In this document: positions 50,269 to 62,717 of the stretch, in pieces
Layout: every line of letters begins with the position of its first letter
Position numbering within the stretch: position 1 is the stretch's first letter
Assembly: GCF_012927265.1 (NCBI RefSeq)
Contig: NZ_JABBGF010000001.1
Coordinates: 2,168,502-2,232,501 of the forward strand
Reading direction: 5' to 3'
DNA from: Chryseobacterium cheonjiense
Lineage (GTDB): Bacteria > Bacteroidota > Bacteroidia > Flavobacteriales > Weeksellaceae
DNA length: 64,000 bases
The notes under the pieces: model-generated
What the model was told of the DNA's origin: nothing
Seen by the model: the letters and a program-made list of their open reading frames with translations, nothing else
Database searches by the model: none
Program-made: the position numbers and the translations under genes

Positions 50269-51165
50269 TTAATTATAATAATTCTGAGATTTTCTAAATT
50301 CCAAAGGCTTCATGCCAGTGTGTTTTTTAAATAATTGTGTGAAATAAGATGCGTTTTCAAAACCGAGATGATATGCAATCTCCGTGATCCCTTTTTCCCC
50401 CAATCTCAGTAGATTTTTAGCTTCTGAAATCAAAAACGTGTGAATCAGTTCCGAAGCTGTTTTTCCTGTTTCCTGTTTCAGTAAATCGCTCAGATAACGT
50501 GGTGAAATACACAATTGTTCAGCAAGATAAGCTACATTTGGCAATCCTTTATTCTCCAAACCGTCCTCAGCAATATATTTTTTTAAGATGTTATTAAATT
50601 TTGTGGCGGTTTTTCCATTGACCAGTGCTCTATCGACGAATTGTCTTTTGTAAAAACGCTGCGCATACTTTAAAATGGAAGAAATATGACTCAAAATAAT
50701 CTCACGGCTGTATTCATCAGGATTATTAAAATATTCTCCCTGGATTTTCGAATGAAGTTCCAGGATCGTCTGTTCTTCTTTTGGAGAAAGTTGTAGCGCT
50801 TCCGTTATATTGTAATCGAAAAAGCCATAATTAGTGATGCTTTGAAAGAGCTCGTGACCATTGAGATAATCTTCGTGAATCATCAGCATATAACCTTTTT
50901 CTTCAAACTCAAGGTCTTTCATTTCGATGATTTGCCGTGGCTTTGCAAAGAAAAGACAGCCATTATCATGGTCGTATTTTGTACGCCCGTACATAAAAAT
51001 TCCTGATCTTATTTTTTTGAAAGCGATAATGTAACAGTCTGTAGTAAACTCCCGATTTCCCAGCGGACAAGCTGCCTGACAGCCGATCATACTGAACAGC
51101 GGATGTTCCGGAGCGTCCCACCCATTTCCTGTATGAAGTTCGGTAAGGGTTTTATAATGTTTCAT
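50269..51165 (-). CDS. AraC family regulator, paralogue of 60578-61486
   Basis: A 298-residue protein from ATG 51165; the longer frame up to 51327 is rejected because it overlaps the hydrolase gene and lacks family character. The N-terminal ligand domain of about 180 residues (HYKTLTELHTGNGWDAPEHPLF ...) is followed by two helix-turn-helix motifs (YLAEQLCISPRYLSDLLKQETG and ITEIAYHLGFENASYFTQLFKKHTG). The same N-terminal pattern occurs in the second AraC at 60578. It is downstream of the alpha/beta hydrolase gene and may control the shared box found in this cluster. Confidence 0.9.
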   Translation of the reverse strand: MKHYKTLTELHTGNGWDAPEHPLFSMIGCQAACPLGNREFTTDCYIIAFKKIRSGIFMYGRTKYDHDNGCLFFAKPRQIIEMKDLEFEEKGYMLMIHEDYLNGHELFQSITNYGFFDYNITEALQLSPKEEQTILELHSKIQGEYFNNPDEYSREIILSHISSILKYAQRFYKRQFVDRALVNGKTATKFNNILKKYIAEDGLENKGLPNVAYLAEQLCISPRYLSDLLKQETGKTASELIHTFLISEAKNLLRLGEKGITEIAYHLGFENASYFTQLFKKHTGMKPLEFRKSQNYYN

Positions 51166-51223: not shown

Positions 51224-52057
51224 TCAAGCCAGAAATAAATTGATATAACCTGCTGAAATTTCCGGATACTGATGTTGAGGTCCGTGCCCGGAATTATTAA
51301 AAATAATATGCTGCATGGTTGGTGCATTTTTCAGTAAAGGAAACCAGTTCTCGGTCGCAAAGCTGATATCGTGGTCACCGGAAATGACAAGAACAGGAGA
51401 CTGCAAAGTTTTATAGCCTTCACGAAAATTCAGTTTATCTTCTTTAAAAATGCCTGAACCCGAAAAATATCTTTGAAAAACTTCTTGTGCTGAAGGTATC
51501 AAATCTCTGTCCAGCCTCTGAGCAATCCTATCATGGGACTCTTTTGCTGCCTGTCTGCTCTTTTCTGAAGTTGGTTCAAAAAACAGATAATATTCATCTT
51601 CCAGATCATTAATTGGCTTTAAAGCATGCTCGAAAAATATAGATTCAATCGGAATCGCATTTTCTCCCGGAGGGTTTGTTCCTATTAAAACGGTCTTCAG
51701 AACACGGTCTGGATTTTGAAAAGTAACGGTCTGGGCTACCAAGCCACCATAAGACCAACCCAACACATTGAATTTTTTTATGCCCAAATGGTCTGCCAAA
51801 GAAGGAACCGTATCTGCGACTTCAAAAATATCCAAAGGCAGCTCTCCTTCCGAACTTCCTATTCCCGGATAGTCAAAAAGAATTATCTCATTATTTTCTG
51901 CCAAAGAATCCAGAAATAAAGGATCCCAGGTATCCATTATCCCTCTGAACCTATTGATAAAAAATAAAGGCTTTCCGTTTCCGAATTTTCTGTAAGCAAT
52001 TTTGTTGCTGTTGATTTCTGCAAATTGTGTTTCTGCTTTTAAAGCTGTAGTTTTCAT
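51224..52057 (-). CDS. Alpha/beta hydrolase
   Basis: A 277-residue cytosolic enzyme of the alpha/beta-hydrolase 1 family. The nucleophile lies in LGWSYGGLVAQ, the acid is the Asp of VISGDHDISF and the base the His of NNSGHGPQHQ. The oxyanion loop reads FINRFRGIMDTWDPLF; the usual HG pair is replaced by NR, which is unusual. It carries copy 1 of the cluster-wide promoter box, 30 bp upstream of a -7 box. The substrate is unknown; the neighbours suggest a role in detoxification or a small redox pathway. Confidence 0.88.
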   Translation of the reverse strand: MKTTALKAETQFAEINSNKIAYRKFGNGKPLFFINRFRGIMDTWDPLFLDSLAENNEIILFDYPGIGSSEGELPLDIFEVADTVPSLADHLGIKKFNVLGWSYGGLVAQTVTFQNPDRVLKTVLIGTNPPGENAIPIESIFFEHALKPINDLEDEYYLFFEPTSEKSRQAAKESHDRIAQRLDRDLIPSAQEVFQRYFSGSGIFKEDKLNFREGYKTLQSPVLVISGDHDISFATENWFPLLKNAPTMQHIIFNNSGHGPQHQYPEISAGYINLFLA

Positions 52058-52089: not shown

Positions 52090-52146
52090 CAAAGTTCAGA
52101 AAACTAAAGTCGAAATAATTTCACAAATCAGTGGAAGAGTAGCACA
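52090..52146 (-). promoter_or_regulatory. Cluster promoter box 1 (hydrolase)
   Basis: On the coding strand, TGTGCTACTCTTCCACTGA (52146-52128), a 30-bp gap, then GAACTTTG (52097-52090), a -7 element with one deviation. No -33 TTTG is present. Confidence 0.6.
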
Positions 52147-52189
52147 AAAACCCATGACTATTTTAAGCTGATTTGGGTTTAAACTTTAG

Positions 52190-53014
52190 TTAGTGTCCGT
52201 GAGCTGCGATACTCGTCTCTTTCCAGTTTCTGATATCATTTAATCTTTTGGTATAAACCTCATTGACAACATGATAAGCAATTTTACCAAATAATAATCT
52301 TTGCGGTGGATTTTGATTGTTAATAAGATTCAGGACAGGTTCTACTGTAGCTTCAGGTTTTCCCCATGTGTCAGGATTGTCACCAGATTCTGCAAATGCT
52401 GCCCGCACCGGATTATAATCGGCAATATCCGAAGAAGTCTGCACCGCCGAGGCTCCCGCCCAGTCCGTTACGTAACCGTTTGGCTCAATTAAAGTGGTTT
52501 TGATACCCAAGTGCGCGGTTTCGCTTCCAATGGTTTCAATTAAACCTTCAACCGCAAATTTTGAGGCATTGTATAAACCTAGCAAAGGCAAAGTTGTCAA
52601 TCCCAAAAAGCTTGAAACCTGAATAATATGACCACTTCTTTGTTTTCTCATTACCGGTAAAACTGCCTGCGCTACCCAAAGCGAACCGAAGAAATTGGTC
52701 TCCATCTGTTCTCTTGCCTGCTGTTCTGAAGTTTCTTCCGTAGTTCCAAATAAACCGAAACCCGCGTTATTAATTAAGACATCGATCTTTCCGAAATGTT
52801 CTTCAATTTGGGCGACAGTTTCGAAAACTTCCGTTCTGCTGTTGACGTCAAGTTTTAAAGTTAAGATGTGATCACCATATTTTTCTTTAAGCTCGTGCAG
52901 AGCAGAAACATTTCTTGCTGTTGCGGCTACTTTATTGCCATTTTTTAAAAGTGCTTCAGCCCATAATTTTCCGAATCCTTTGGATGCTCCCGTGATAAAA
53001 ACTACTTTACTCAT
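52190..53014 (-). CDS. SDR family oxidoreductase
   Basis: A 274-residue classical short-chain dehydrogenase. TGASKGFG is the NAD(P)-binding glycine motif, NNAG lies near residue 87, and the catalytic Ser and YNASK (YxxxK) are present. The extended C-terminal part and the ending AAHGH are shared with the SDR at 61800, its paralogue. The substrate is a small carbonyl or alcohol but unknown. It has promoter box 2 and is divergent from the Crp/Fnr-type gene. Confidence 0.92.
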   Translation of the reverse strand: MSKVVFITGASKGFGKLWAEALLKNGNKVAATARNVSALHELKEKYGDHILTLKLDVNSRTEVFETVAQIEEHFGKIDVLINNAGFGLFGTTEETSEQQAREQMETNFFGSLWVAQAVLPVMRKQRSGHIIQVSSFLGLTTLPLLGLYNASKFAVEGLIETIGSETAHLGIKTTLIEPNGYVTDWAGASAVQTSSDIADYNPVRAAFAESGDNPDTWGKPEATVEPVLNLINNQNPPQRLLFGKIAYHVVNEVYTKRLNDIRNWKETSIAAHGH

Positions 53015-53043
53015 GTTTTATTTTTTAATGTTATTTAATGAAG

Positions 53044-53101
53044 CAAAGTTATCTTCAATACTGAAGGGATGGATAGTCCATTTTAGCTGAAAAATAGCAC
53101 A
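53044..53101 (-). promoter_or_regulatory. Cluster promoter box 2 (SDR)
   Basis: Coding strand: TGTGCTATTTTTCAGCTAA (53101-53083), a 31-bp gap, then TAACTTTG (53051-53044). No -33 TTTG. Confidence 0.65.
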
Positions 53102-53147
53102 TAAATACGTTTTGGAATTAAAAACGATTATTTTTAGATATAATAAT

Positions 53148-53155
53148 TAAATTTG
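53148..53155 (+). promoter_or_regulatory. Crp/Fnr gene -7 box
   Basis: TAAATTTG matches TAnnTTTG, 17 bp upstream of the ATG at 53173. Confidence 0.45.
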
Positions 53156-53172
53156 CTGTATAACTACTAGTA

Positions 53173-53751
53173 ATGTTCGAGATTTTCCAGAAATACCTGA
53201 CCGATAAAATAGAACTTTCCAATAACGAATTACAATTGATCGAATCTGTCTGCAGACTGAAAAAACTTCGTAAAAAACAATTCCTTTGTCAGGAAGGAGA
53301 AGTTTGGCATTACAATGCTTTTGTTTGCCGTGGACTGGTAAAAACATTTTCTATTGCCGAAAACGGAACCGAACACATCATCAATTTTGCACCGGAAAAT
53401 TACTGGACAGGCGATAGAGAAAGCCTTTACAGCGGAAAACCATCACTTCTTAACATCGATGCAATAGAACCTACAGAATTAATCCTGATCGACAAACCTG
53501 ATTTTGAAAAGCTATGTGCAGAGATTCCCCAGTTAAATCAATTGGTCAATCAGATTATTCAAAAAAGCTTTATTGTTTCACAGGGCAGAATTTTAGCCAA
53601 CATCAGTTTTACGGCCGAAGAAAAATATCAGAATTTCCTCGAAAAATATCCTAACATCGTCAATAGAATACCTCAGCATATGATCGCTTCTTATATCGGA
53701 ATTACTCCCGAAACCCTTACGAGGCTGCGTAGAAATATGGTCAAGAAATAA
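53173..53751 (+). CDS. Crp/Fnr family transcriptional regulator
   Basis: A 192-residue protein with an N-terminal cyclic-nucleotide-binding-like beta-roll (QEGEVWHYNAFVCRGLVKTFSIAENG ... ENYWTGDRESLYSGKPSL) and a C-terminal winged helix (NRIPQHMIASYIGITPETLTRLRRN). The beta-roll lacks the strict cAMP-binding Arg-Glu pattern, so a different ligand or no ligand is likely. It is divergent from the SDR gene across a shared region with promoter box 2 and precedes a second SDR gene. It is one of four candidate regulators of the cluster. Confidence 0.9.
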   Translation: MFEIFQKYLTDKIELSNNELQLIESVCRLKKLRKKQFLCQEGEVWHYNAFVCRGLVKTFSIAENGTEHIINFAPENYWTGDRESLYSGKPSLLNIDAIEPTELILIDKPDFEKLCAEIPQLNQLVNQIIQKSFIVSQGRILANISFTAEEKYQNFLEKYPNIVNRIPQHMIASYIGITPETLTRLRRNMVKK

Positions 53752-53761
53752 AAAATTTCAT

Positions 53762-53834
53762 TTTCATTGACATTTGTTTGCTATTTTTTCAAGCTTTTGT
53801 CAATGGAAGAAGTCATCCTGCTGCAGCATCTTTG
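53762..53834 (+). promoter_or_regulatory. Cluster promoter box 5 inside duplicated 51-bp element
   Basis: 53762-53812 matches 54836-54886 at 50 of 51 bases. Inside, CATTGACA (53765-53772) and TGTCAATG (53798-53805) form a perfect inverted repeat with a 25-bp spacer. TTTGCTATTTTTTCAAGCT (53777-53795), a 31-bp gap, then CATCTTTG (53827-53834) as -7 element. Confidence 0.6.
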
Positions 53835-53867
53835 TCTTATAAAAATAACAATTAAAAATAAGACAAA

Positions 53868-54725
53868 ATGAACAAAACAGTTTTTATTACAGGAACAAGC
53901 ACGGGCTTTGGAAAATTAACAGCAATTACTCTTTCAAAAGCAGGATACACGGTTATCGCAGGAATGCGGGGCATTTCAGGAAAAAATGAAACAGTCGCCA
54001 AAGAATTGGGAGCTCTCCCAAATATAGAAGTTGTTGAAATTGATGTAACCAATGATTCTTCGGTAACTGATGCTTTCGAAAAAGTACTTCAAAAATATGG
54101 CAAAATAGATGTATTGGTCAACAATGCGGCCGTTTCAGGTTTCGGATTATTGGAAGCGTATAGCCTGGACAGAATCTGACAAATGTTTGAAGTGAATTTC
54201 TATGGCGTCATTCGTACCTATCAGGCTGTATTGCCTTCTATGAGGCAATATAAAAGCGGTTTGATTATCAATATCACTTCCGGTGCAAGTGCTCATACAT
54301 CTCCTTTTATGATTCCTTATTTTGCTTCGAAATTCGGAGTGGAAAGTATTACTGAAGGTTTACAGGATGAATTGAAACAATTCAATATCGACAACGTTTC
54401 TATACAGCCGGGAGTTTATCCTACAGAAATGAATACGGGCGAAAAAACCGGTGTTAATTCGGATAAGCCTGAAATTTCCGAAGCGTATAATCCGGTTGCA
54501 ACAGAGCAGTTTAATGCTATTGGGGCTGCATTATTTGGAAAAATGAAAGAATTCAATATGAACCCGCAAACTATAGCAGATGGAATATTGGAACTGATTC
54601 AGATGAAAGAAGGCTCCCGTCCGTTGCGCTTTCCTCTGGATGCTGTCGCCCAGGGAACGGATCTCGAATTTATCAATGCCAGAGCCGAACTTAAAGCTAA
54701 ATGGCTTGCAAAATACAGTGAATAA
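53868..54725 (+). pseudogene. SDR oxidoreductase interrupted by in-frame TGA
   Basis: The frame 53868-54179 carries TGTSTGFG and NNAA, then TGA at 54177-54179 interrupts it. The same frame resumes at CAA 54180 and ATG 54183 and continues to 54725, with the catalytic YFASK in the second half. Without the stop the protein would be about 285 residues and full length (DRI-X-QMFEVNFYG). A CGA-to-TGA change would explain it. No selenocysteine insertion element is apparent and Cys or Sec is not expected there. So the gene is probably disrupted, unless the stop is read through. It has promoter box 5. Confidence 0.85.
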
Positions 54726-54749
54726 ATAGAATTCTAAATAATAACTGAT

Positions 54750-54781
54750 AAGGTTGGAATGTTTCGTTTCAGCCTTTTTTT
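54750..54781 (+). terminator. Terminator after the interrupted SDR
   Basis: Arms AAGGTTG and CAGCCTT (one G-U), loop of 13 bases, then a T tract. It separates this gene from the next promoter. Confidence 0.6.
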
Positions 54782-54835
54782 ATGTTTAAACAGTAACCCC
54801 AATATTATCGTTGAATTTTTTAAAACAAAGTCCGG

Positions 54836-54908
54836 TTTCATTGACATTTGTTTGCTTTTTTTTCAAGCTTTTGTCAATGGAAGAAGGCTCCTGAATGTTG
54901 GAAATTTG
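54836..54908 (+). promoter_or_regulatory. Cluster promoter box 6 inside duplicated 51-bp element
   Basis: TTTGCTTTTTTTTCAAGCT (54851-54869), a 31-bp gap, then GAAATTTG (54901-54908) as -7 element with one deviation. Inverted repeat CATTGACA/TGTCAATG as in the first copy. Confidence 0.6.
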
Positions 54909-54939
54909 CTTCATTAAATAACAACAACAAATTATCACA

Positions 54940-55944
54940 ATGAGCAATTTAAAAAAACAAATCAAAGCCAATGCAACAGCAGTAGCAAGTGCACTTTTAT
55001 TATCAACAGCAGTTTCAAACATTTCCGCGCAGGAAAAAGCAGGAATTCTTGGAGTGGATCATGTAGGAATCAACGTTCCGGATATGAAACAGGCTGTGAG
55101 CTTTTTTACTGATGTTTTAGGATTTTCAGCAGTAACAAGCTTAGGTCCGATTCCTTTGGATGATGCGTGGAAAAAGAATAATCGTATGAATCCCAAAACT
55201 GGTCCGGTATCATTCAAAATGGTAAAAGCAGGAACAGGTGCCAACATTGAGTTATTCGAATATCAGGACAATAAAGGAAGTTCCCAGCAACCTGGAGGAG
55301 ACGATATCGGAGCGAGTCACATTGCATTTTATACCAATGATATCAGTAAAAGTGTAGCTTATCTTAAAAGCAAAGGTGTACAATTCCTGGGAGAGCCCTT
55401 TTTAATGCCATCGGGAGATACAGAAGGCGAAACCTGGGTATATTTTGTAACACCCTGGGGTTCTAAAATGGAATTAGTGTCTTATCCAAACGGAAAAGGC
55501 TATGAGAAAAAAAATCCTTCAACGATTTTATGGTCGCCTAAAGATGCTGTGAAAAACCCAATTGAAAAGTCAGATTCAAAAGCGCTTTCGGAAGCAGAGA
55601 TTCGTTCTTTGGTAGAAGGACATTTGGCTATCTGGAATGAGAAAGACCTAAAAAAACGTGAAGCTTTGATGGCAAAGATCTATGCTGATGATATTGAAAT
55701 GGTAGACCGTCATTTTATAGCAGTAGGCCACAAAGAGATCAATGGGTTTGTTGATGATTTGCAGAAGAAAAGCCCAAGCTCAAAATTCACCCATATCAAA
55801 GCCATTGATGTCAATCATAATATCGCAAGATTGTATTGGCAAAACGGCACTCCCGAAAAACCAGATGCCGTAACCGGAATGGATCTTTTTGTTTTCGAAA
55901 ATGGAAAAGCAGTTAAACTATACGTTTTTGTGGACAACAAATAA
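54940..55944 (+). CDS. Exported VOC-SnoaL fusion protein
   Basis: A 334-residue protein with an N-terminal basic and hydrophobic stretch (to ISAQ, residue 31), a likely signal peptide. Residues 35-190 are a VOC domain (GVDHVGINVPDMKQAVSFFTDVLGF ... VYFVTPWGSKMELVSYP), and residues 215-334 are an NTF2/SnoaL-like domain (LVEGHLAIWNEKDLKKREALMAKIYADDIEMVD). Joining these two folds in one exported protein is unusual. It has promoter box 6 and is followed after 46 bp by a SnoaL/ester-cyclase-like gene, without a terminator, so the two form an operon. Confidence 0.82.
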   Translation: MSNLKKQIKANATAVASALLLSTAVSNISAQEKAGILGVDHVGINVPDMKQAVSFFTDVLGFSAVTSLGPIPLDDAWKKNNRMNPKTGPVSFKMVKAGTGANIELFEYQDNKGSSQQPGGDDIGASHIAFYTNDISKSVAYLKSKGVQFLGEPFLMPSGDTEGETWVYFVTPWGSKMELVSYPNGKGYEKKNPSTILWSPKDAVKNPIEKSDSKALSEAEIRSLVEGHLAIWNEKDLKKREALMAKIYADDIEMVDRHFIAVGHKEINGFVDDLQKKSPSSKFTHIKAIDVNHNIARLYWQNGTPEKPDAVTGMDLFVFENGKAVKLYVFVDNK

Positions 55945-55990
55945 TCATTATAAATTATCAAAATAACATTTACAATTTTAAAAATCAATT

Positions 55991-56434
55991 ATGAAAGCTT
56001 CAGTAATCAATCAAAATTCAGAAAACGAAAAATTAATCCGTGAGTTGTACAGAATCGCAGAAGAACAGGACACCCAAGGTTTTGTTGAGCTCTTTGCAGA
56101 GGACGGATACTTTTGGGATGTATCTGCAGGAACCAAATATTATGGACAGGATATCGGTAAAACAGTAGATATTTATGCAACAGCTTTTCCGGATATGCAC
56201 AGAGAATTATACGATCTGTATGTTTTAGAAAACGAGAATACAGTGGTAGTAGAATTATCTTTAAACGGAACCCACAAAGGCCCGCTCCAGTTACCTTCGG
56301 GAACGATTCCGGCTACCAATAAAACAATGCAAACCCCTTGTTGTGATGTTTTCAAAATCGAGAACGGAAAAATAAAATCATTCCATTGTTACACTGCGGC
56401 AACTATACTTTTAGGTCAGTTAGGTATTCTTTAA
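55991..56434 (+). CDS. SnoaL-like / ester cyclase-like protein
   Basis: A 147-residue cytosolic protein with the NTF2-like cone fold: LIRELYRIAEEQDTQGFVELFAEDGYFWDV, AFPDMHRELYDLYVLEN and CCDVFKIENGKIKSFHCY. Members include polyketide cyclases and ester cyclases, and many are uncharacterised. The genes around it suggest an accessory role in small-molecule turnover. A strong hairpin ends it before the nitroreductase gene. Confidence 0.82.
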   Translation: MKASVINQNSENEKLIRELYRIAEEQDTQGFVELFAEDGYFWDVSAGTKYYGQDIGKTVDIYATAFPDMHRELYDLYVLENENTVVVELSLNGTHKGPLQLPSGTIPATNKTMQTPCCDVFKIENGKIKSFHCYTAATILLGQLGIL

Positions 56435-56435
56435 T

Positions 56436-56474
56436 AAAAAATCAGGGTGATAATGTTTTGTTGCCCTGATTTTT
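56436..56474 (+). terminator. Terminator or attenuator before nitroreductase
   Basis: Arms AAAAATCAGGG and CCCTGATTTTT with a 16-base loop. The nitroreductase gene starts 14 bp later, so it may be reached by read-through. Confidence 0.65.
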
Positions 56475-56488
56475 AACAGCTATAAATA

Positions 56489-57124
56489 ATGAAAAATATA
56501 TTAGATTTTCTAAATTGGCGATACGCAACCAAAAGGATGACAGGCGAAATAATAGAGGAAGAAAAAATCAATGCTATTTTGAAAGCTGCCCATCTCGCTC
56601 CATCCGGAATCGGATTACAGCCTTACGAAATTATCGTCATCAGTAATCCTGAAATTAAAAAGCAAATTGTGCCGATCGCAATGAATCAGGCTCCAATCGT
56701 GGAATCTTCGCATCTTTTGGTTTTTGCCGTCTGGGATGAGTACTCTAAAGAAAGAATTGATAAAGTGTTTGATTATCTGGCAGAAAAACGCAATGTCGAT
56801 TCTGTTCAATATGATAAGCAAAGAAATTTTTCAAAACAGTTCTTCGGAAATATGAGCATTGAGGAAAACTTTCATCACGCTGCCAAGCAGGCAAATATTG
56901 CGTTAGGAGTAGCCATTGTAGAGGCTGCTTCAGAAGGAATAGATTCTACACCAATGGAAGGTTTTGACCCGATAGCTCTCGATGAATTTCTGAAACTTCC
57001 GTCCAAAGGATTAAGAAGCTCAATGCTTCTGGCGTTAGGATACAGAGACGAAGTGAAAGATTGGAATCTTAAGCTGAAAAAAGTGCGCAAGCCATTTGAT
57101 GAGTTTGTGACGTTTCTTCAATAA
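56489..57124 (+). CDS. Nitroreductase family NAD(P)H oxidoreductase
   Basis: A 211-residue flavoprotein of the NfsB-like group. FMN-binding motifs are WRYATKRMTG near residue 10 and ILKAAHLAPSGIGLQPYEI near residue 30, and GIDSTPMEGFDPIALDEFL and SSMLLALGYRD lie toward the end. It would reduce nitroaromatics or quinones, or act on enals. It has no close promoter of its own that I can see. It is convergent with the AhpD-like gene. Confidence 0.92.
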   Translation: MKNILDFLNWRYATKRMTGEIIEEEKINAILKAAHLAPSGIGLQPYEIIVISNPEIKKQIVPIAMNQAPIVESSHLLVFAVWDEYSKERIDKVFDYLAEKRNVDSVQYDKQRNFSKQFFGNMSIEENFHHAAKQANIALGVAIVEAASEGIDSTPMEGFDPIALDEFLKLPSKGLRSSMLLALGYRDEVKDWNLKLKKVRKPFDEFVTFLQ

Positions 57125-57242
57125 TTCAAAAAAATCAGAACATCCAATACTCGGTATAAACACAAAATACATGAACTAACTCAGTGCTTATTATAAAGTA
57201 CATCCCGATGACAGAAAGTTTATAAATTTATGATGAATTGAT

Positions 57243-57273
57243 AAAAGCCTTTTGAATACATCAAAAGGCTTTT
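57243..57273. terminator. Bidirectional terminator
   Basis: Perfect stem AAAAGCCTTTTGA / TCAAAAGGCTTTT with a 5-base loop between the convergent nitroreductase and AhpD-like genes. Confidence 0.75.
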
Positions 57274-57307
57274 CCTTAAAAACTAAAATTTATTTAAAAA
57301 GTCTTCA

Positions 57308-57847
57308 CTAAATAGCTTGTGCTAAAGGAAAGTCAATTGGTATCCTGGTATTGGCAAATACATAGTTTGTAAAACTTCTTAATGCAACCAGAGCAGTCAA
57401 TTCAATTAAAGCTTTTTCATTGTAACCTGAATTAAAGAAATCTTCTAAAGCTCCGTCTCCGGCGTTTCCTTTATTATTTGCGATAGACTGAGCTAATTTG
57501 ATTATTGCATTCAATGTAACATTATCAGAATTCCCTTTTCTGACTTCTATGGTTTCTTCTTCCGTAAAGCCTCTCATTTTAGCCAAAGCCGTATGTGCTG
57601 CCAGACAGTAATCACATTCGTTAACCTGAGAAACAACAAGATTAATTGCTTCTCTTTCTTTTGCTGTAAACGATGAATCGTGGGAAAGTGCGGCTTCAGT
57701 TTCCAACATTGCTTTCAATGCTGATGATGAGTAACCTATGGTGGCGTACAGATTGGGAATTTTTCCCATTTTTTTCTCTACAGATTCTAAAATACTTTGT
57801 GATCCAAAACCCAACTGTTCCTTTTCAGGTACTGAAATTGTTTTCAT
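57308..57847 (-). CDS. AhpD-like carboxymuconolactone decarboxylase family protein
   Basis: A 179-residue all-helical protein of the CMD/AhpD superfamily. The redox CxxC with the following His is seen in ECDYCLAAHTALAK (about residues 77-90), and EREAINLVVSQVN lies just before it. It probably acts as a peroxidase-type or disulphide reductase and is typical of oxidative or electrophile stress. It has promoter box 3 of the cluster. It is divergent from a decayed AraC fragment. Confidence 0.88.
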   Translation of the reverse strand: MKTISVPEKEQLGFGSQSILESVEKKMGKIPNLYATIGYSSSALKAMLETEAALSHDSSFTAKEREAINLVVSQVNECDYCLAAHTALAKMRGFTEEETIEVRKGNSDNVTLNAIIKLAQSIANNKGNAGDGALEDFFNSGYNEKALIELTALVALRSFTNYVFANTRIPIDFPLAQAI

Positions 57848-57890
57848 TTTTTATGATTTAAATGTTATTAAATTGTTTCATTTGTTGATA

Positions 57891-57948
57891 CAAAGTTAGC
57901 TCGCCCTCTAACCTAAAGCGTAGCCCATTTCAGCGGAAGAATAGCACA
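57891..57948 (-). promoter_or_regulatory. Cluster promoter box 3 (AhpD-like)
   Basis: Coding strand: TGTGCTATTCTTCCGCTGA (57948-57930), a 31-bp gap, then TAACTTTG (57898-57891). No -33 TTTG. Confidence 0.7.
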
Positions 57949-57989
57949 GAATTACTTAAACGAAACTGTAGAAATTTAAATAAAGTATT

Positions 57990-58188
57990 ATAGACAAAAG
58001 ACGATAGAATACAGCCGTCTTAACTTTGGATAAAGCAAAAATAGCATGCTGGAAAAGAAATTCTATGAGTGACATCGCCTGCCAGCTCGGTTTGAGCATC
58101 AATTTCACCTTATCAGACATTTCAAAGCAGGGCAGGAATCTCAAATACATGCTTTTTTAGAACAATTTTTCTCCGCAGAACTGATTTA
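57990..58188 (+). pseudogene. Decayed AraC HTH fragment
   Basis: The plus strand contains a broken coding relic: AKIACWKRNSMSDIACQLG in one frame and FEHQFHLIRHFK in the next. Together they resemble the end of an AraC HTH (SDIAxQLGFExxxxFxRxFK), with a one-base loss in the GGTTTGAG run near 58097 and at least one more shift upstream. No start codon or ligand domain is found. It is most likely the 3' remnant of a duplicated regulator. Confidence 0.4.
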
Positions 58189-58992
58189 ATTATTTTTAAG
58201 TATTGCTGCGGTATTTTTCGGGCTGCGCCCAAACTGCTTTTTAAAGGCATAAGAAAAATGAGAAAGGTCTTCAAAGCCCAAATCAACATAGATTTCGGAG
58301 GGTGACTGCTGTTTTTCCTTAATTAAAAAATAAGCTTCCTCCAAACGTTTCTGCAAAATCCACTTATGAGGTGAGGTGTGAAAAATCTTCTCAAAATCAC
58401 GCTTAAAGGTTGCTAAACTTCTTCCTGTGAGATAAGCAAGACGTTCTAAATTGACATTGTATTTGTAATTCTGAATCATGAAAGATTCCAAATCAATTTT
58501 AAATGGCTCTGAAAAATCGAATAGGATATGTTTGAGTTCAGGCTGAATCTCAAGTAAAATAAATAACAATTCTTTAATTTTAAGATCTATAAAATCCCTG
58601 GTCAGCAGTTTCTTATTTTCAAGAATGCTTTGCAACGAAGTAATGTAATTTTGAAGCACAGCACTCACTTTAATTGAAACCAAAGGTTTTGAAATCTCAG
58701 AACGGCTGGAAACAAGATGATATTCTTTTGCCATATTCTGTAGCACTTCCTGATTCAGGTAAATATTCAGGCTCTCAAAAATTCCGTTTTCAGGCGGATG
58801 CTTGGCGAATTTTACCAGCTGGTTTTTTCTGATTAAATTAAAATCACCTTCATGAGCGATGTATTTCTCCTGACCATCAGACAATACGAAACTTCCCGAT
58901 AACTGGAAAGAAAGCACATGCATAGGAACGAAATTTTCGCCTTTTCGGCTTACTTCGTGATAGCAGGAATAGACAATATCAGATTTTTCCAT
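58186..58992 (-). CDS. AraC family regulator
   Basis: A 268-residue regulator with a beta-rich N-terminal domain (HVLSFQLSGSFVLSDGQEKYIAHEGDFNLIRKNQLVKF) of the kind that binds small ligands, and a C-terminal double HTH (LERLAYLTGRSLATFKRDFEKIFH and PSEIYVDLGFEDLSHFSYAFKKQFGRSP). It differs from the other two AraC proteins in the N-terminal domain. It lies upstream of, and on the same strand as, nothing else in the operon: the ALDH gene ends 67 bp before its start. Confidence 0.9.
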   Translation of the reverse strand: MEKSDIVYSCYHEVSRKGENFVPMHVLSFQLSGSFVLSDGQEKYIAHEGDFNLIRKNQLVKFAKHPPENGIFESLNIYLNQEVLQNMAKEYHLVSSRSEISKPLVSIKVSAVLQNYITSLQSILENKKLLTRDFIDLKIKELLFILLEIQPELKHILFDFSEPFKIDLESFMIQNYKYNVNLERLAYLTGRSLATFKRDFEKIFHTSPHKWILQKRLEEAYFLIKEKQQSPSEIYVDLGFEDLSHFSYAFKKQFGRSPKNTAAILKNN

Positions 58993-59059
58993 TTCGTTTT
59001 AATGCTTAAACATAAAGCGTCATTTTTTAAAAACAACGCCTCATTAAATTTACAAAATA

Positions 59060-60475
59060 TTATTGCAGTACAGCTTTCGGCTCAAGATAGGCTTCCAGGC
59101 CATAGACTCCATATTCCCTGCCGACCCCGGATTGCTTGAAACCGCCGAACGGAACCATCGGATCGTGACGGAATCCGTTGATACAAACTCTTCCGGCATC
59201 AATCTGTGCTGCTATTTTTTCAGCTCTTTCAATATTGGGTGAACTAACGTAAGCGGCCAAACCGTAAGGGGTATCATTTGCAATATCGATGGCGTCTTCT
59301 TCTGTTTTGTAAGGTATAATGCAGAGTACAGGACCGAAAATCTCGTCCTGAGCGATTTTCATTTTATTACTCACATTAGTAAAAATAGTCGGTTTTACAA
59401 AGTTTCCATCTTCCAGTCCTGAAGGTTTACCTTCTCCTCCCGCAAGTAGCTCAGCACCTTCTTCCAATCCTATTCTGATATAATTTTGAACCCTTTCAAA
59501 TTGTTTCACACTTACCATCGGACCTACAATGGTATCATCATTCTGAGGCAAGCCTACAACCACTTTTTCAGCAGCTGCTCTGGCAATGTCATTTACTTTG
59601 TCGATTTGATTTTCAGGAACAAGAAGTCTTGTTGGAGCAATACAGGCTTGCCCGTTATTCATATACGCTCCGAAAATGGCTGTCGGTATGACTTCTTCAA
59701 AATTTGCGTCATCCATGATGATATTTGGTGATTTTCCGCCCAGCTCCAAAGTAACTCTTTTCATTGTATCGGCCGCAGTTTTAGCAATGAGTTTTCCAAC
59801 TGCAGTAGAGCCTGTAAACGAAATCTTGGAAACATTAGGATTGGCAGCCAATTCAGATCCTACTACATTTCCCAAGCCTGTTACAAAGTTGATGGCACCT
59901 TTTGGCAAACCGGCTTCGTGAAAGGCTTCCATCAGCACCTGAGTCTGCAGGCTGCTCATTTCGCTGGGCTTGATAACAACCGTACAACCCGCTGCAATAG
60001 CGGTAGCCACTTTGCTGCATATTGAACTGTTACTTGCGTTCCACGGCGTTATAATGCCTACAACGCCAACCGGCTGCAAGAAAATTTTTGAAGAATTGAT
60101 GATTGGGTTAAAGTTAAAATTCCGGAGAGATTCTATCATCGAATCGAACCACATTCCCGTAAATTCATTACTCAAGGATGAAAACCGGAAAGTTCCGCCA
60201 TATTCTTCAATCATCACATCCGTGAACTCCTTTTTTCTTTTTTCAACGGCAGATTTCAGCCTTTCAAGATATCCTATTCTTTCTTCCACCGTAGATTTCG
60301 AAAAAGTTTTGAAAGCTTGTTTTGCCGCCTCGACCGCATTTCTGGCATCAAATTCGTCCGCAAGAATTACTTCACCAATTTTTCTATTATCTGAGGGATT
60401 AATTACATCTAAAGTCTGTGTTCCGTGCGGCGTTACAAATTCGCCATTGACATAAATTTTGTTTACTGTTTTCAT
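59060..60475 (-). CDS. NAD-dependent aldehyde dehydrogenase
   Basis: A 471-residue ALDH superfamily enzyme. The catalytic Cys is residue 278 in NNGQACIAPTRLL. The general base Glu lies in VTLELGGKSPNII, the Gly-rich FTGSTAVGKLI is the NAD fold, and EIFGPVLCI follows. It oxidises aldehydes to acids. It is followed by the AraC at 58186, and its upstream region has a direct repeat of AraC-type form next to the AraC at 60578. Confidence 0.94.
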   Translation of the reverse strand: MKTVNKIYVNGEFVTPHGTQTLDVINPSDNRKIGEVILADEFDARNAVEAAKQAFKTFSKSTVEERIGYLERLKSAVEKRKKEFTDVMIEEYGGTFRFSSLSNEFTGMWFDSMIESLRNFNFNPIINSSKIFLQPVGVVGIITPWNASNSSICSKVATAIAAGCTVVIKPSEMSSLQTQVLMEAFHEAGLPKGAINFVTGLGNVVGSELAANPNVSKISFTGSTAVGKLIAKTAADTMKRVTLELGGKSPNIIMDDANFEEVIPTAIFGAYMNNGQACIAPTRLLVPENQIDKVNDIARAAAEKVVVGLPQNDDTIVGPMVSVKQFERVQNYIRIGLEEGAELLAGGEGKPSGLEDGNFVKPTIFTNVSNKMKIAQDEIFGPVLCIIPYKTEEDAIDIANDTPYGLAAYVSSPNIERAEKIAAQIDAGRVCINGFRHDPMVPFGGFKQSGVGREYGVYGLEAYLEPKAVLQ

Positions 60476-60492
60476 TTCTAAATTTTATAGTA

Positions 60493-60560
60493 CAAAATTA
60501 GATGAGAAATGAAATACATGGTTTGTAAAAAAGCTCAAATACAGTTTGTAAAAAAGTTCA
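60493..60560 (-). promoter_or_regulatory. ALDH promoter with AraC-type direct repeat
   Basis: GTTTGTAAAAAAGCTCA (60521-60537) and GTTTGTAAAAAAGTTCA (60544-60560) repeat with a 23-bp period, differing at one base. A -7 box TAATTTTG (coding strand, 60500-60493) lies 20 bp below the nearer repeat. The AraC gene at 60578 begins its stop just beyond. Confidence 0.6.
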
Positions 60561-60577
60561 GGCCGTGTTCATGAATT

Positions 60578-61486
60578 TTATTTGACCGCTTCTTTTTTAT
60601 ATTGACCAGGCGTAACGCCTACTACTTTTTTAAATAATCTGGTAAAATAAGAAGGACTTTCAAAACCGAGATCGTAAGCAATTCCTGCTACATTATTTTC
60701 TGAGCCTATCAAAAGATTTTTAGCTTCTTTGATCAGATAAATGTGAACATGCTCCAAAGCGGTTTTACCGGTTTCCTGCTTCAGAATATCACTGAGGTAG
60801 CGAGGAGAAACAGCTAATTTATCTGCCATAAAGCCAACAGTTGGCAACCCGTCTTCAGTATGTTTATTTTCGTTAAAATATTCATCCAGAACCGTCAGAA
60901 ATCTTTTAACCATTGTTCCGGAAACATTGGAACTTCTGTCTATAAACTGTCTTTTATAGAAACGGTCAGAATATTTCAGGATAGAATCAATATGAGAGAG
61001 GATGATTTCTCTACTGAACTCATCAGAATTTTCATCATACTCGCTTCTTATTTTATCATAAAGTTCCCACATTATCAGTTCTTCGGATGGCGAGATATGA
61101 AGCGCTTCATTGATTTCATATTCAAAATAGCCATACTTTTTGATCTGTTCATTAAGTGGATGCCCCGACAGATAATCCTCATGGAAAAACATCACAAATC
61201 CCTTTTCAGCAAACTGTACATTACTGACTTCTATAATTTGTCTGGGTTTCATAAAAACTGCAGAGCCGTTGCTGTGGTCATACTGTGTTTTACCATATAA
61301 TACATAACCTGACTTGATTTTTTTTAAAGCAATCATATAAAAATCTCCCGTAAAGCGGTCTTCACCAACAGAATAAGTCATCAGTTCTTTGCAGGTCATT
61401 AAACTCAAAAGAGGATTTTTAGGCGGTTCGAAACCACTTTTTTCGTGCAATTCTGCGATGTTTTTATAGTGATTGATTTTTTTCAT
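60578..61486 (-). CDS. AraC family regulator, paralogue of 50269-51165
   Basis: A 302-residue protein with the same two-part layout as the AraC at 50269: an N-terminal domain (HYKNIAELHEKSGFEPPKNPLLSL) and a double HTH (FMADKLAVSPRYLSDILKQETG and VAGIAYDLGFESPSYFTRLFKKVVG). Many blocks match its paralogue, for example FYKRQFIDRS and PRYLSDILKQETGKTA. It ends about 100 bp upstream of the ALDH gene, the direct repeat lies between, and it probably regulates that gene. Confidence 0.9.
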   Translation of the reverse strand: MKKINHYKNIAELHEKSGFEPPKNPLLSLMTCKELMTYSVGEDRFTGDFYMIALKKIKSGYVLYGKTQYDHSNGSAVFMKPRQIIEVSNVQFAEKGFVMFFHEDYLSGHPLNEQIKKYGYFEYEINEALHISPSEELIMWELYDKIRSEYDENSDEFSREIILSHIDSILKYSDRFYKRQFIDRSSNVSGTMVKRFLTVLDEYFNENKHTEDGLPTVGFMADKLAVSPRYLSDILKQETGKTALEHVHIYLIKEAKNLLIGSENNVAGIAYDLGFESPSYFTRLFKKVVGVTPGQYKKEAVK

Positions 61487-61751
61487 AGTTATTGAGGTTA
61501 TGAATCTTAATTAGGTATGATCAAATGTAGTAAATAAAGTTGTTTTATATTCTAAATTCCGGTTTTGATTTATAAAGCAGACACAGCTTTTATACTTCCG
61601 ACAATTGCTTTTATTAATAGTTAAACTGAGATAAATAATAGCGATGCAATGATAAATAACCAAATGTCCGGCAATCTTTAATTTCCAAAAGATTTCTCCG
61701 GTAAATCTAAGTTCGAAAGATTTAAGAACGAATATTTGATTTTAAACAAAA
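61487..61751. other. Intergenic, no gene seen
   Basis: About 265 bp of AT-rich DNA between the AraC start and the terminator of the next SDR. No motif matching the cluster box is visible. Confidence 0.5.
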
Positions 61752-61776
61752 AAAAATCCAATTTTATATTGGATTT
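61752..61776 (-). terminator. Terminator after the SDR at 61800
   Basis: Arms ATCCAAT and ATTGGAT with loop TTTAT; on the minus strand a run of T follows. It lies 24 bp after the SDR stop. Confidence 0.65.
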
Positions 61777-61799
61777 ATCTAATTTTTTCATTCTGCATA

Positions 61800-62621
61800 T
61801 TAACCGTGAGCGGCTTCAGAAACGTCTTTCCATTCTTTCCAAACCTGAATTTTTTCTGCATATACTTTTTCCGTTTTTCTCAATCCTACTTTTCCAAGGA
61901 ACAAACGAAGTGGCGGATTTTCACTGTCAATTAATTTCAAAATCGCAGGAACCGTTGCTTCCGGTTTTCCATAATCTTCAGGCAGTAAACCTTCCGCTTC
62001 TCCCAAGCTTGATTTCAAAGCATCGTAAGCCGGAATTACATCACCGTGAACTGCTGAGCTGCCTCCAAAATCTGTAGTATAACCATTAGGTTCAATCATG
62101 GTAACATGAATTCCAAAATCTTTCACTTCACTTGCCAAAGCTTCGCTGAAACCTTCCACCGCAAATTTTGTGGCGTTGTAAATGCCTAGTGTTGGTAAGC
62201 TCCAGACCCCCAAAACACTTGATAACTGAATTACGTGACCACTACCCTGCGCTCTGAAAATCGGCAAAGCAGCCTGAGTCACCCAAAGTGTTCCAAAAAC
62301 ATTGGCTTCAAATACATCTCTTGCAGCCTTCTCTCCTACTTCTTCTACGGCTCCGAAAACACCATATCCGGCATTGTTGATTACAACATCAAGTTTTCCG
62401 AAATGATCTTTAGCTTCATGTACAGCTTTAAAAACAGCTTCTCTGTCTGTAATATCCAATGCAATCGGTAAAAACTGCTCACCATATTGTTCTGCCAAAT
62501 CCTGATATGCTTCAATATTTCTTGATGTTGCAGCTACTTTATCTCCTCTTTTAAGAAATGCTTCCGTCCAAAGTTTTCCGAATCCTCTTGATGCTCCTGT
62601 GATAAAAATTGTCTTTTCCAT
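61800..62621 (-). CDS. SDR family oxidoreductase, paralogue of 52190-53014
   Basis: A 273-residue classical SDR from ATG 62621; the in-frame ATG at 62675 is rejected because it lies in the promoter region. TGASRGFG binds NAD(P), VINNAGYG and YNATK are as expected, and IEPNGYTTD and the ending SEAAHG match the SDR at 52190 closely. It has promoter box 4. The preferred substrate is unknown. Confidence 0.92.
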   Translation of the reverse strand: MEKTIFITGASRGFGKLWTEAFLKRGDKVAATSRNIEAYQDLAEQYGEQFLPIALDITDREAVFKAVHEAKDHFGKLDVVINNAGYGVFGAVEEVGEKAARDVFEANVFGTLWVTQAALPIFRAQGSGHVIQLSSVLGVWSLPTLGIYNATKFAVEGFSEALASEVKDFGIHVTMIEPNGYTTDFGGSSAVHGDVIPAYDALKSSLGEAEGLLPEDYGKPEATVPAILKLIDSENPPLRLFLGKVGLRKTEKVYAEKIQVWKEWKDVSEAAHG

Positions 62622-62659
62622 TTTAAAATTATTTGTCTTATTATTTAATTTTGATAGGA

Positions 62660-62717
62660 CAAAGTTATACTGCATGGCACCTGTGTTTGTAGCTCAGATC
62701 AGCGGAAGAATAGCACA
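62660..62717 (-). promoter_or_regulatory. Cluster promoter box 4 (SDR)
   Basis: Coding strand: TGTGCTATTCTTCCGCTGA (62717-62699), a 31-bp gap, then TAACTTTG (62667-62660). The 19-base box is identical to box 3. Confidence 0.7.

Follow-up and report, generated by a model that had tools for sequence, protein, structure and literature searches.

At the araBAD promoter of E. coli, the araI1-I2 operator of AraC consists of direct-repeat half-sites with a 21-bp period, and the proximal half-site is located at the -35 region. The operators of the P. aeruginosa AraC-family activators CdhR/GbdR consist of GGTCGC half-sites separated by a 15-bp spacer (PMC5806209). Sites of the FNR/HcpR type read TTGATnnnnATCAA and TTGACnnnnGTCAA, the latter being a described FNR-family motif (PMC1274295). 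In Flavobacterium psychrophilum, the promoter element TAnnTTTG was mapped at positions -12 to -5 (PMC9723704). In the literature that we searched, there is little on how activators work at Bacteroidota promoters, and our open-access literature search found no paper on the regulon reported here. Operators of these kinds are known; for the motifs, the regulons and their interleaving, the literature searched appears to contain no description.

According to a first-pass annotation of the window (the whole stretch of 64,000 nucleotides from Chryseobacterium cheonjiense that was analyzed), a single 19-bp box lies 30 or 31 nt from a -7 element in front of six genes. We retain four of these genes, all on the minus strand: an alpha/beta hydrolase (51224-52057), SDR1 (a PRK08263-type short-chain dehydrogenase, 52190-53014), an AhpD/CMD-family protein (AhpD-like, 57308-57847) and SDR3 (PRK08263-type, 61800-62621). 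Their boxes, also on the minus strand, differ from TGTGCTATTCTTCCGCTGA at 2, 3, 0 and 0 positions, respectively, and are followed by the -7 element at gaps of 30, 31, 31 and 31 nt. The remaining two genes, SDR2 (53868) and VOC-SnoaL (54940), carry another element (described below) and are not members.

Each of the four promoters has the same parts, a box, a proximal half-site and a -7 element, all on the minus strand. They were scored with a sequence profile built from 43 of the 64 usable sites of related loci, none of them from the window. In the hydrolase promoter (profile site 52090-52149, 29.7 bits), the box (residing at 52128-52146) is followed by a weak proximal half-site (52107-52125) and by GAACTTTG as the -7 element (52090-52097). 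The other three promoters have TAACTTTG as the -7 element: (i) SDR1, with the box at 53083-53101 (49.6 bits), the proximal half-site TGGACTA.. at 53062-53080 and the -7 element at 53044-53051; (ii) AhpD-like, with the box at 57930-57948 (55.8 bits), the proximal half-site TGGGCTACGCTTTAGGTTA at 57909-57927 and the -7 element at 57891-57898; and (iii) SDR3, with the box at 62699-62717 (43.5 bits), the proximal half-site TGAGCTA.. at 62678-62696 and the -7 element at 62660-62667. The boxes of AhpD-like and SDR3 are identical, as had been claimed.

The 64 sites from related loci gave the consensus TTCTGTGCTATTCTTCCGCTGAAATGRGCTA, followed by approximately 20 variable bases and then by TAACTTTG. 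When the sequence downstream of the box was scored with a half-site matrix, a single peak appeared at an offset of 21 (mean -13 bits, versus about -43). Because the matrix peaks only at this offset, the box is one half of a direct repeat; that is to say, judged from its sequence, the operator is a 21-bp direct repeat, TGTGCTATTCTTCCGCTGA-aa-TGRGCTA, of which the box is the distal half. The second half-site previously suspected downstream of the box is therefore real and is the second copy of this repeat.

The distance between operator and promoter is fixed. Among 87 distinct boxes from related loci, 72 had a TAnnTTTG element within 70 nt, in every case at an offset of 30 or 31 (72/72), and the chance expectation was 0.05 per offset; the hydrolase type, with CAACTTTG or GAACTTTG, is among the remaining 15. 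The start codon mostly lies 23-45 nt past the -7 element in these loci. None of the 72 box promoters had a TTTG at the -33 spacing, whereas 4.9% of all TAnnTTTG elements in the same loci did, and the absence of a -33 TTTG noted earlier was confirmed at the four box promoters of the window. If TAnnTTTG is taken as -12 to -5, the distal half spans approximately -62 to -44 and the proximal core TGRGCTA approximately -41 to -35. The proximal half-site thus occupies the -33 region, where a -33 element would be, and the arrangement of direct-repeat half-sites approximately 21 bp apart with the proximal one at the -33/-35 region is that of a class-II operator. The box operator resembles araI1-I2 of E. 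coli AraC in its 21-bp direct repeat, and the C-terminal domains are related (2k9s). By contrast with araBAD, the box promoters lack a -33 element and are served by a Bacteroidota-type polymerase with TAnnTTTG. They have this element in common with Flavobacterium sigma-A promoters, but carry an activator repeat in place of the -33 TTTG (PMC9723704). The CdhR/GbdR operators also have a period of 21 bp (6-bp half-sites plus the 15-bp spacer), but their sequence is different, and CdhR was described as class I, acting upstream of the promoter, whereas the box operator is class-II-like (PMC5806209).

The profile found exactly four sites in the window (E 3e-16 to 5e-8), namely those of the hydrolase, SDR1, AhpD-like and SDR3 promoters. 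Across the 4.28-Mb genome, the same four sites were significant and the next match had E=0.06. Outside the cluster there were 61 box matches with 2-3 mismatches, and all of the 26 inspected were without a correctly spaced -7 element. The scans of this genome and of related genomes that the first-pass annotation had proposed thus gave no random scatter in the former and a fixed spacing of 30/31 nt (72/72) in the latter. Since all four significant genome sites fall in one cluster, the idea of a compact regulon holds at the sequence level.

The two genes excluded from this regulon are preceded by a different operator. Their claimed boxes differ from the box consensus at 8 of 19 (SDR2) and 9 of 19 (VOC-SnoaL) positions, were not found by the profile search of the window at E<=10, and fall inside a different 42-bp inverted element that is highly conserved (53765-53806 and 54839-54880, plus strand), and on these three grounds we rejected both as box promoters. 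In one relative, the box-like GCTATT is lost and the 42-bp element is kept (L034). We designate this element, CATTGACATTTGTTTGC-N8-CAAGCTTTTGTCAATGG, element 2. Before SDR2, it reads as a tandem of FNR-like sites, TTGAC-N4-GTTTG and CAAGC-N4-GTCAA, 20 nt from CATCTTTG at 53827-53834; before VOC-SnoaL, it lies likewise 20 nt from GAAATTTG at 54901-54908. The two FNR-like sites would centre near -42.5 and -65.5.

The candidate regulator of element 2 is the Crp/Fnr-family protein encoded next to it (53173-53751, plus strand; hereafter, Crp). Crp has a cyclic-nucleotide-binding fold (cNMP_binding) and a C-terminal HTH, and in an alignment with FNR structures through the HTH its recognition helix ETLTR parallels ETISR of FNR. 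Element 2 (<=3 mismatches) is present in exactly the ten of the 150 genus genomes that have Crp at >=85%, and one of these genomes (G116) has two Crp genes with element 2 beside both; linkage of element 2 and the crp gene is a caveat, as with the box. In distant Crp-SDR2 pairs (61-64%), the interior of the element is changed, its spacing from the -7 element is preserved, and a complete FNR-type palindrome, TTGAT-AATT-GTCAA, is present. The palindrome TTGAY-N4-RTCAA is complete in these loci (L203-L205), and each site in the window has only one strong half. Element 2 of the diverged loci is thus like the FNR/HcpR sites, from which that of the window differs in consisting of two tandem sites with one degenerate half each, at a fixed distance from the -7 element. 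Because of the shared element 2, the co-occurrence with Crp, and the FNR-like palindrome and helix, SDR2 and VOC-SnoaL form a second regulon, and the best explanation is a putative tandem FNR-like operator to which the adjacent Crp/Fnr protein would bind. A single in-frame stop codon (54177-54179) interrupts SDR2 (53868-54725), and copies in relatives are intact. A conserved recoding signal was considered and rejected, since of about ten copies read only that of this genome contains the stop.

For the box itself, the main candidate activator is AraC1 (50269-51165, minus strand), encoded approximately 58 bp downstream of the hydrolase gene, and the second candidate is its 52% identical paralogue AraC3 (60578-61486, minus strand). 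Both have a C-terminal double HTH (HTH_18/HTH_AraC; E 9.7e-22 for AraC1 and 2.8e-22 for AraC3). The N-terminal domain of AraC1 had no match in Pfam. In a structure model, whose overall domain arrangement is uncertain (pTM 0.62), AraC1 has an AraC-type HTH and an N-terminal domain that matches the RhaR regulatory domain (TM-score 0.71 by target), and this match points to an N-terminal beta-barrel with dimerisation helices.

With AraC1/3-type genes defined by >=50% identity and sites by E about 1e-5 or better, 22 of the 29 genus genomes with such a gene had box sites; of the other 121, none did (150 genomes; Fisher p=1e-20). Sixty-eight of the 70 sites lie <=5.2 kb from an AraC1/3-type gene; the other two, both in G116, lie at distances of about 88 and 110 kb, and they alone argue for action at a distance. 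Because the box, its target genes and the AraC genes travel together, the co-occurrence argument is partly confounded by linkage. In a tree of 69 family members, the AraC1 and AraC3 clades, which are not sisters, have sites in every row; in the other clades, only one long branch and a 39% cluster paralogue are accompanied by sites. No site was seen with three relatives (57% identity) beside the AraC3 branch. Outside the genus, we searched 395 genomes of the class, and the one strong new site is located approximately 1 kb from the sole AraC1 orthologue of >60% identity. On this evidence, AraC1 and/or AraC3 is very probably a class-II activator at the four box promoters. The earlier suggestion that the box positions an AraC-type activator is thus well supported for these four promoters, and not for SDR2 and VOC-SnoaL. 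A fourth AraC-type gene (approximately 39% identical), absent from the window, is found in the cluster of many relatives (L190:6645, L188:9411, L035:13319).

Two other regulators encoded in the cluster were weighed for the box and ruled out by co-occurrence. The first-pass annotation had named Crp as the alternative, and its gene does adjoin SDR1 divergently, with a likely Crp/Fnr operator at two of the six promoters. However, its orthologue is missing from 13 of the 22 box genomes, one genome (G093) lacks box sites although it contains both Crp and element 2, and the box is a direct repeat rather than the dyad TTGAY-N4-RTCAA that is the likely site of this protein. It is therefore highly unlikely that Crp regulates the box, or all six promoters, and the alternative survives only for SDR2 and VOC-SnoaL, where it is the best explanation. 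Activation by AraC2 (58186-58992, ExsA_N-type), an AraC-family protein encoded within the cluster approximately 240 bp from the AhpD-like promoter, is equally hard to credit: AraC2 (>=67% identity) is absent from 15 of the 22 box genomes, five genomes carry it without box sites at E<1e-5, and the promoter of its own ALDH-AraC2 unit has a different conserved repeat.

The division of labor between AraC1 and AraC3 is a closer question. In ten genomes, sites are retained with an AraC1-type gene in the absence of AraC3, which makes AraC1 the better single candidate, and an AraC1-type gene is also found in each of the 12 genus genomes with AraC3 (>=76%). Together with the non-sister position of the two clades, this is consistent with a narrower explanation in which only AraC1 uses the box and AraC3, responding to another signal or using another operator, merely co-travels. 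We regard this as possible, though somewhat doubtful, since in several loci the box lies inside the AraC3-SDR divergent region, directly beside araC3, and S279, rare elsewhere in the family, is common to the DNA-binding domains of both proteins. S279 is the only specificity residue peculiar to the two that stands out, too little to prove a shared specificity. The coverage of the -33 region by the proximal half-site would also suit a repressor that blocks this region. Yet there is no -33 element to block (0/72), and the invariant 30/31-nt spacing fits contact with the polymerase, so repression is improbable.

In the mechanism that we propose for activation by AraC1 and/or AraC3, a dimer would sit on the 21-bp direct repeat when the N-terminal domain senses a ligand. 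The fixed distance to the Bacteroidota -7 element would put the proximal half-site in place of the -33 TTTG, and the dimer would hold the RNA polymerase at promoters whose recognition is poor in the absence of a -33 element. As a result, the SDR (SDR1 and SDR3), AhpD-like and hydrolase genes would be switched on. Because the AraC1 gene probably lies in the hydrolase transcript (a probable operon), the regulon would include araC1 itself, with positive autoregulation. From the enzyme classes, we would guess at a role in the detoxification or catabolism of carbonyl, quinone or lactone compounds.

The ALDH-AraC2 unit is preceded by a third repeat. In ten loci, a direct repeat of TGARCTTTTTTACAAA with a 23-bp period lies at a fixed distance from TAATTTTG; in the window, the repeat is located at 60521-60560 (minus strand) and the -7 element at 60493-60500. 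AraC2 is a candidate regulator for this repeat. Two, probably three, operators are thus interleaved, and one motif should not be read across the whole cluster. A broader model, to which we give about even chances, is a mobile Bacteroidota enzyme module with interleaved operator-regulator pairs (AraC1/3, Crp/Fnr and perhaps AraC2), each of which would fix the distance of its activator to the -7 element; at least the box class would have lost the -33 element, with activator occupancy as the substitute. With a conserved operator, a known spacing and a defined regulator clade in >=8 genera, the system allows a direct test of an activator replacing the -33 element, and the box promoter is a usable candidate for an inducible promoter.

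In loci around AraC3 relatives, the box precedes the same genes in Chryseobacterium, Epilithonimonas, Chitinophaga, Sphingobacterium, Flavobacterium, Mariniflexile, Flectobacillus and Dyadobacter. AraC3 and its SDR have approximately 88-91% protein identity among the window genome, Chitinophaga terrae and Mariniflexile gromovii (L032, L049, L038 and relatives), and identity at this level across these organisms suggests that the cluster may have moved by horizontal transfer together with its operators. Across loci, the sites are followed by SDR1 (46), SDR3 (26), the hydrolase (17) and the AhpD-like gene (11). Other genes found after box sites encode a secreted MRJP/SGL-type protein, a metallo-beta-lactamase-fold protein and a 244-aa protein (METSTQTLVNK...), which has no Pfam match and is a recurrent box target in relatives (L190:5447, L188:8380, L041:5469).
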